From positions 124,001 to 188,000 of the forward strand of contig JAIELP010000003.1 of the NCBI GenBank assembly GCA_019752925.1: a stretch of DNA of 64,000 nt, written 5' to 3'. This document shows positions 18,527 through 20,149 of this stretch, piece by piece. Each line of letters opens with the position of its first letter. The stretch's first letter is position 1. Below the pieces are notes generated by a model that had not been told where the DNA came from, searched no databases, and was given only the letters and a program-made list of their open reading frames with translations. Origin of the DNA: a bacterium. Lineage in GTDB: Bacteria; Bdellovibrionota; Bdellovibrionia; Bdellovibrionales; Bdellovibrionaceae. Position numbers and translations under genes: made by a program.

Positions 18527-20149
18527 ATGGACATTACACAAATTATTATCTACATCGTTATCGGAATAGCAGCTGGCGCCGCCTTAGTTTATTTTTTATT
18601 TTACATGGTTCGTAAGCAAATTATCAACGAAGCGCAGGAAGAAGCTGCTGAACTCCTTAAAGAAACTCAAGAGCAATTCAATTTAGAAGAACAAGAACGA
18701 AAAGAAAAAATCCAAGAGATAGAGCTAGAAGCTTGGGCCGATGTTGAAGATGCACATTTGGCCATGGAACAAAAATGCGAAGAACTTGAAACCCGAGTGA
18801 ACGACAAAAAAGTTCTGAATGAAGAAAAATATAAAACGTTAAGAGCCTCTTTAATGTTAAAAGAAACTGAACTTCGCGATAGTTCTATTAAACTCACAAC
18901 TAAGCAAACAGACATTAATAAAAATATTTTACAAAAAAAAGAATTTGAAGATTCTTTTAAAAACACTTTAATTAACAAAACCCAGCTTCAGCCGTCTGAT
19001 GTTATTACAGAGATTAAATCTAAACTCATTGACCAGGCTCAACAGGACTACAGCAAACAGGCCGAAAGTATCGAAGAAGAAACAAAAGAGTTTGCAGAGC
19101 AAAAAGCTAAAAAAATTCTAGCCCATTGCATAGATCGTTTCCATAAAGAAATGAGCACCGAGCGCGGTATTTCAGCCAGCTACTTCCCCACTGAAGATAT
19201 TCGTAAAGTTTTCTGCGAAAGCTTAAAAGAAAACGTAGAAGCTATTCAAAAAATCAGTGGTTGTGATATTTACATCGAAGCCCAACCCGATCCTGAAAGA
19301 TGGGACAATATTCAAATCGTTGGTTACGATCCTGTACGCCGCGAGCTAACCCGTCGCATTTTCGATCGCCTATTCCGTGATATAGAAAAACGTAAAAAAT
19401 TAAATCCTCAGGAAATTCAGAGAATTTCTGAAAATTTAAAAACTGAACTTTTAAATCAAATTAAACGTGATGGAGACAACATCTGTAAAGAATTAGGGTT
19501 GCAAAATGTAAATCCCGAAATCAGACAGGTCATGGGGTCACTCAGATTCCGTTACTCATACACACAAAATCAATACTTCCACTGTGCTGAGGTGGGCTGG
19601 TTTGCCGGCATGCTTGCTGGCGAACTTGGTAACGAAGTTAAAAAAGCCAAACGCGCCGGCATGCTACACGATTTAGGTAAAGCCCTTGATCACGAACTTG
19701 ATGGCAGCCACGCCGTAATCGGTGCCGACTTCATCTCTACACGAAATGAAGCCGAAGATGTTATTTATGCTGTTAGAGCCCATCACCATGACGTAACACC
19801 TACACATGACATGGACTTCTTAGTTATTGCAGCTGATGCTATTTCCGGCGGACGCCCTGGTGCTCGTCGCAGTACAGTTGAAACCTATACTCAAAAAGTA
19901 TCTGGCCTTCAGGAAATTTCAAAACGCTTCCAAGGCGTTACGGATGTATTTGTACTTAACGGTGGTCGCGAGTGCCGCGTTTTAGTAAATTCTAAAGTTG
20001 TCGACGATGTGAATGCTATTAAAATTTCGCAGCAGATTGCTAAAACAATTGAAGAAGAAATGCAGTACCCTGGACAGATTAAAGTTGTGGTAGTTCGTGA
20101 AACTATTACCTCCGAAAGTACTGCCGGCAGAAGTAAAGATCACAGATGA
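18527..20149 (+). CDS. rny: Ribonuclease Y with a degenerate KH domain
   Basis: RNase Y is a membrane-anchored endoribonuclease that starts mRNA decay. The 540 residues show an N-terminal membrane helix (4-27), a long charged coiled coil (to ~200), a KH region (~221-280) and an HD domain with H352 (FHCAEV), HD at 381-382 (LHDLGKA), HHHD near 419-422 and ADAISGGRPGARR near 436-448. In the KH region the usual IGREGRNIR loop is replaced by VFCESLKENVEAI, so the GxxG RNA-binding loop is missing, while flanking elements (GCDIYIE, GYDPVRRELTRR) remain. The catalytic part looks intact. The stop overlaps the next start as ATGA. Confidence 0.93.
   Translation: MDITQIIIYIVIGIAAGAALVYFLFYMVRKQIINEAQEEAAELLKETQEQFNLEEQERKEKIQEIELEAWADVEDAHLAMEQKCEELETRVNDKKVLNEEKYKTLRASLMLKETELRDSSIKLTTKQTDINKNILQKKEFEDSFKNTLINKTQLQPSDVITEIKSKLIDQAQQDYSKQAESIEEETKEFAEQKAKKILAHCIDRFHKEMSTERGISASYFPTEDIRKVFCESLKENVEAIQKISGCDIYIEAQPDPERWDNIQIVGYDPVRRELTRRIFDRLFRDIEKRKKLNPQEIQRISENLKTELLNQIKRDGDNICKELGLQNVNPEIRQVMGSLRFRYSYTQNQYFHCAEVGWFAGMLAGELGNEVKKAKRAGMLHDLGKALDHELDGSHAVIGADFISTRNEAEDVIYAVRAHHHDVTPTHDMDFLVIAADAISGGRPGARRSTVETYTQKVSGLQEISKRFQGVTDVFVLNGGRECRVLVNSKVVDDVNAIKISQQIAKTIEEEMQYPGQIKVVVVRETITSESTAGRSKDHR

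Follow-up and report, generated by a model that had tools for sequence, protein, structure and literature searches.

In the Bdellovibrionales, two RNase Y paralogues have degenerated reciprocally. The class A copy, encoded in the window (the whole stretch of 64,000 nucleotides analysed here), keeps the HD nuclease site and has lost the GxxG loop of its KH domain, and the class B copy keeps the loop letter for letter and has lost the HD metal site. We regard this reciprocal degeneration as well shown, and consider it probable, judging from sequence, that the working RNase Y of these bacteria is an A:B heteromer with recognition and cleavage in trans. In many bacteria, mRNA decay begins with RNase Y. 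The comparison covers 54 distinct proteins of class A (window-type), 50 of class B (HD-dead) and 109 of class C (canonical RNase Y).

The class A gene of the window (Table 1) has a frame without interruption over all 540 amino acids. The NCBI RNase Y model TIGR03319 matches its product over nearly the full length (residues 7-529) with 374.2 bits, i.e., below the curated cut-off of this equivalog (454.35 bits). The membrane segment and coil expected of RNase Y are present (Pfam RNase_Y_N, 34.8 bits, cut-off 32), the Pfam HD domain is detected and the metal site H..HD..HH..D is complete, as a sequence-only reading of this DNA had stated. The main claim of that reading, a KH domain without its GxxG loop, was borne out as well: within VFCESLKENVEAI (residues 228-240, nt 19208-19246) the alignment places ESLK where RNase Y has GREG, and given that the distance from a conserved acidic residue to a conserved Gly is 23 residues, ungapped, in both the window protein and canonical RNase Y, the register is unambiguous. 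A correction of frame or alignment that would restore GxxG is ruled out, and a frame error rejected, as the loss is common to 53 of the 54 distinct window-type proteins and to 19/19 held-out ones; aligned with other Bdellovibrionota, as had been proposed, the missing loop proved not to be peculiar to the window's genome.

Table 1 Features of the class A gene in the window
Feature	Position	Strand	Details
Class A RNase Y-like gene	18527..20149	+	540 aa; ORF; proposed catalytic half of pair
N-terminal membrane segment and long coiled coil	18527..19138	+	residues 1-204; AF2 helices 3-152, 156-204
Degenerate KH domain	19139..19402	+	residues 205-292; AF2 of fragment; PDB matches are KH domains
Place of GxxG loop, here ESLK	19217..19228	+	residues 231-234; alignment
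HD catalytic domain	19553..19870	+	residues 343-448; H352, H381-D382, H419-H420, D437 intact
C-terminal alpha-beta domain	19877..20104	+	residues 451-526; AF2 elements

The further claim that the KH elements flanking the loop are kept held for the predicted fold and not for the sequence profile, Pfam KH_1 being undetected in the window protein and detected in the second RNase Y of the same genome (33 bits). AlphaFold2 predictions, made for class A as single chains, reached a mean pLDDT of 86.5 for the whole window protein (40 alignment rows) and 82.7 for its KH fragment (34 rows), both with the KH elements in the order beta-alpha-alpha-beta-beta-alpha. The closest PDB match of the fragment is 5www (Z 10.0, rmsd 4.4, 84 aligned), followed by 1ec6 (Z 9.0, rmsd 2.8, 79 aligned), both KH type I; the Foldseek E is only 0.008. 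The structure prediction that the sequence-only reading had called for thus yields a modelled KH type I fold that lacks the loop, and class A is predicted to keep this fold with an almost continuous helix in the loop's place. From the missing motif we infer that the class A KH domain has lost RNA binding. The HD domain matches structure 2pq7 (Z 12.2) and the C-terminal domain matches the MamM/MamB C-terminal domain (Z about 10.5). Searching by sequence for solved relatives of the window protein found none; with class B as the query there were three matches, all weak and none of them to an RNase Y.

Two local observations concern the window gene. Its stop codon and the start codon of a glycosyltransferase-like ORF share the letters ATGA (window 20146-20149), an arrangement that suggests translational coupling; this neighbour adjoins only 8/60 A loci. 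Between KH strands 2 and 3, class A of the window's genus carries an extra stretch (window 19280-19310, around QPDPERWDN) that is absent from the other class A copies compared.

Exactly one further RNase Y relative, 30% identical, is encoded in the window's genome (2.74 Mb, 14 contigs, 94% complete); the two copies lie on different contigs (A on C5, B on C4) and do not form one operon. This class B protein scores 591.7 bits with TIGR03319, above the cut-off, has a perfect KH loop (IIGREGRNIR) and sits in zapA-ygfA-rny-tyrS, as the canonical RNase Y of the order does. In its HD domain the first His is replaced by Ala, HD by HN, HH by HN and the last Asp by Ser, leaving it without the metal site of RNase Y. 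The canonical second RNase Y for which the sequence-only reading had recommended a search was therefore not what turned up, and the idea that one canonical RNase Y is encoded elsewhere in this genome is rejected, the second copy being HD-degenerate. That the enzyme relies on a further factor to recruit its substrates, also proposed in that reading, would indeed be the most likely consequence of the missing loop; what the reading overlooked is that the likely recruiting factor for A is B, the second RNase Y of the same genome. RNase E/G is also present in this genome, and RNase J was not found in it (TIGR00649 search).

The same division runs through the order. H, HD, HH and D are present in 54/54 class A proteins, and GxxG is missing in all of them except L035 (the same protein as L159), which has GPDG; among the other 53, the second G is kept in 19, the first in 13 and neither in 21. 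Every class B protein (50/50) has IIGREGRNIR and none (0/50) the last HD Asp, a count that, like the first His of A, is partly true by definition, as B was assigned by the loss of this Asp and A by a QNQxxH..EVG signature. Free of the definition are the pairing of the copies, the held-out set, the KH sites, those HD sites that the definition does not use, and the trees built without motif columns. Counting the first His, HD, HH and the last Asp as motif groups, class B has lost one in 22 proteins, two in 5, three in 8 and four in 15; the 22 lack the last Asp only, and residual activity of such copies is possible. Class C has the complete HD set in 109/109 and GxxG in 108/109, the remaining one being cut short there. 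Before the distinct-protein counts, L126, which the A signature had caught wrongly, was manually reassigned to C, and L102 and L132 were put aside; the fragments L099 (two pieces) and L100 were left out and L101 gave no row. The 80 named loci were found via HD peptide patterns, a set that cannot show HD-dead copies; the named carriers of A in it are Bdellovibrio sp., Bdellovibrionaceae, Pseudobdellovibrionaceae and Bdellovibrionales MAGs. L099 is the single RNase Y gene of G040 and lies in two frames, by frameshift or assembly error.

Wherever a genome of the order has two full copies, they are A and B (46/46), and neither A+C nor B+C occurs among the order genomes read; C stands alone, with both halves intact, in 14 genomes. 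Five genomes, mostly drafts, have only A or only B: A is the sole copy in G012 (86% complete) and B the sole copy in G026 (81%), G031 (99%, 10 contigs) and G001, and G024 has B plus a fragment of a second copy. In G001 and G024 a piece of the second copy is found at a contig end, and G104 was entered as B alone only until its second copy was read and turned out to be A-type. The HD-dead copy of G031 (L061/L235) is the only one in that genome, A being either lost or hidden in an assembly gap. As a held-out check, the copies of 19 further two-copy genomes were sorted by the TIGR03319 cut-off alone, and 19/19 fit in all features: copies over the cut-off (19/19) have IIGREGRNIR and no last Asp, and copies under it (19/19) have all HD ligands and no GxxG, with the qualification that three of the 19 held-out A copies (G170, G171, G172) match loci L155, L163 and L160 and are not fully new. 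A paralogue without catalytic residues is hence retained alongside one with them in 46/46 and 19/19 two-copy genomes; the paired genomes read number 66 in all. The held-out A of G167 (L288) is broken into two frames, a frameshift or assembly error, and the single-copy genome G178 has a canonical RNase Y. Within a high-completeness set of 69 order genomes (at least 97% complete, the window's genome among them), 55 carry a copy above the cut-off together with one below it, and it is from these pairs that the 19 held-out ones were taken; by family, the 55 are 37/39 in f1 (the exceptions being G001 and G031), 2/2 in f10, 16/19 in f4 and 0/9 in other families.

Constraint on the two proteins is likewise crossed. 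At sites conserved at 90% or more in class C, A retains 0.37 of the KH sites and 0.92 of the HD sites, and B 0.95 and 0.81, respectively. Mean pairwise identity of the KH domain is 0.41 in A, 0.85 in B and 0.76 in C of the order, and that of the HD domain 0.71, 0.63 and 0.79. Site by site (columns numbered in the frame of L002), the nine conserved HD columns H343, H372, D373, K376, D379, H386, H410, H411 and D428 all stand at 1.00 in A, and in B at 0.68, 1.00, 0.52, 0.50, 0.78, 0.52, 0.90, 0.48 and 0.00; the KH columns G231, G234, R235 and R238 are at 0.26, 0.37, 0.02 and 0.11 in A and all at 1.00 in B. In 10/10 genome pairs dN is crossed in the same way, the KH value being higher in A and the HD value higher in B. 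Both genes are under selection, with dN/dS of 0.03-0.09 in the four low-dN genome pairs (the other six of the ten are too divergent for trustworthy dN/dS), and pseudogene decay of A or B is rejected by these low ratios. A positive link between the KH loss of A and the HD loss of B was not found in 46 pairs, the correlation being weak and negative (rho -0.30, p 0.04, kinship ignored). The spacing between coil start and ER motif is exactly 172 residues in 45/45 A and 45/45 B, even though class A coils are on average only 29% identical to one another; given that canonical RNase Y of the order also has 172 in nine of the 11 copies checked (168 in the other two), this length is permissive rather than proof, and it could be inherited, not selected.

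Trees were built from the KH domain to the C-terminal end with the motif columns removed (84 and 83 rows), and in these class A is one clade and class B is one clade. A, B and the C copies of the order grouped apart from other RNase Y (branch support 91), so that A descends from the order's own RNase Y; A+B as a single clade, as from one duplication inside the order, is not rejected (p 0.46), and A may instead be older, as it groups with the second copies of a distant family, f18, when these are added (support 85-91). The neighbours of 51 B copies are ygfA in 50, tyrS in 48 and zapA in 47, and none of 60 A copies lies in this ancestral locus (ygfA neighbourhood). With B still at the ancestral locus and A never there, A is the copy that moved.

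Family f18 has a division of its own. In 2/2 genomes (G071, G153) the ancestral-locus copy has GREGRNIR and a degenerate HD domain (last Asp to Asn, HH to HE or HS), and the second copy has an intact HD and still carries GxxG (GKSG, GRMG), which means that KH loss is not a necessary outcome. The pairs are L102, L245, L132 and L251, the HD-intact copy being very divergent. One common loss of HD behind B and the HD-dead f18 copy, which would put the two in one clade, is rejected (AU p 0.007, on a quick tree and for a group named after the first tree had been viewed), and the HD loss of f18 is, as far as these trees can tell, independent of that in class B. Elsewhere in the phylum, G160 (f26) has an HD-degenerate RNase Y at the ancestral locus (L249, last Asp to Asn), with no second RNase Y seen in this 78% complete genome. 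The RNase Y of f14 (L133-L137) is short (frames of 354-457 aa, matching from about model position 167-181), without the membrane/coil part and with KH loop and HD site intact. In f15 (L103-L106, L108, L111, L113-L125, L127-L130) the His after Asp is replaced throughout, giving DAS.EGS against DH..EGS in most others.

RNase Y of B. subtilis is described as a dimer formed through a long parallel coiled coil, with the C-terminal region as a second dimer contact in its AlphaFold model and a hole near the KH domains that is proposed to take RNA (PMC9775385), and mutation of the HD pair is reported to abolish the rescue of E. coli without RNase E (PMC5436854). We postulate that the ancestral RNase Y gene was duplicated in the Bdellovibrionales and that, as two chains would be joined by the long parallel coiled coil, mixed dimers would have formed in which each copy was free to lose what the other supplied. 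The relocated copy, A, would then have dispensed with its KH loop and kept the nuclease site, the copy at the ancestral locus, B, would have kept the loop and given up the metal site, and in the resulting heteromer the KH domains of B would grip the RNA that the HD domain of A cuts. The association of the two chains, the loss of RNA binding by A, the loss of catalysis by B and the action in trans would follow from the sequences. In favour of such a heteromer are the strict A+B pairing (46/46 and 19/19, with no A+C or B+C), the crossed dN, the single A and B clades, the locus identity, the equal coil length and the second HD loss in f18, again at the ancestral locus and with an HD-intact second copy in the same genomes. 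Against it are the 99% complete G031 with B alone, the weakly negative relation between the KH loss of A and the HD loss of B (a positive one might be expected of copies that depend on each other), the GxxG kept by the HD-intact copy of f18, the 22/50 B copies without the last Asp only and the unlinked A and B genes. Whether RNase Y split at least twice independently into an HD-dead RNA-binding subunit at the ancestral locus and a separate HD-active subunit, joined in an obligate heteromer, is, in our judgement, evenly poised.

Some of these points would also fit two separate proteins, A being a homodimeric nuclease that needs no KH domain (for instance, because it acts on few substrates or is recruited by the membrane) and B a stand-alone RNA-binding scaffold or regulator. 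That A keeps all parts but the loop under purifying selection, that G031 keeps B without A and that the genes are unlinked would agree with this; given that the unbroken pairing without any A+C or B+C is unexpected for independent genes, and that the coil lengths of A and B are exactly equal, we hold it to be unlikely. Less probable still, and in our view improbable, is that the KH domain of A has become a surface on which some protein other than B docks, such as an RNA helicase, PNPase, RNase E/G or an RNA-binding adaptor: the predicted retention of the KH fold with a nearly continuous helix for the loop, the same KH change reported for KHNYN (PMC11997328) and the RNase E/G encoded in the window's genome speak for it, and the poor conservation of A's KH across species (pairwise 0.41) is unlike what one conserved docking partner would leave. 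That B remains active as a canonical RNase Y, with Asn tolerated for the last Asp, and A a divergent extra copy, seems very improbable, given that the last Asp is kept in 109/109 C and 54/54 A and that 28/50 B, the window genome's B included, lose more of the HD site, even if 22/50 lack that Asp only and TIGR03319 names B RNase Y. A sequencing, frame or alignment artefact, for which no supporting evidence was found, has a negligible chance, as the same features recur in 54 distinct A proteins and 19 more rows (three of them already among the named loci) with frames open in nearly all and low dN/dS.

Should the A:B heteromer be real, RNase Y dimers would be able to recognise RNA on one chain and cleave it on the other, in trans, and what is annotated as RNase Y in Bdellovibrio would itself be no nuclease. 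A natural pair of this kind puts RNA binding and cutting on two chains, which makes the cis/trans question in the dimer testable. There is also a practical side: TIGR03319 recognises only the HD-dead copy, the HD-intact one falling below its cut-off, and as it is the former that receives the name ribonuclease Y, knock-outs or annotation based on names would hit the wrong gene for catalysis.

Enzyme-pseudoenzyme pairs are already known, and it is the split of RNase Y that appears to be new, not the principle; no report of a duplicated or split RNase Y was found in the literature searched, with most subscription journals outside it. The heteromeric archaeal tRNA-splicing endonuclease has catalytic and structural subunits derived from a duplicated homomeric nuclease, unrelated to RNase Y in fold and substrate. 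In RNase J1/J2, an enzyme of another fold, one subunit contributes little catalysis, i.e., the loss is one-sided and not reciprocal as in A and B. The likeness lies in the heteromer of paralogous RNases, described for J1/J2 of Bacillota (PMC4419217) and proposed for A:B. The vertebrate nuclease KHNYN, with a KH1 without GxxG and a di-KH region reported not to bind RNA, is described as acting with ZAP, a separate RNA-binding protein (PMC11997328); it would resemble our case in combining a nuclease of this kind with an RNA-binding partner, and differs from it in its host, in an unrelated nuclease domain and in a partner that is no paralogue. Closest remains the B. subtilis-type RNase Y itself (TIGR03319), with the same membrane segment, coiled coil, KH domain, two helices, HD domain and C-terminal region and a dimer described as held by coil and C-terminal region (PMC9775385): there a single chain carries both the KH loop and the HD site, whereas in the Bdellovibrionales pair they are found on separate paralogues.
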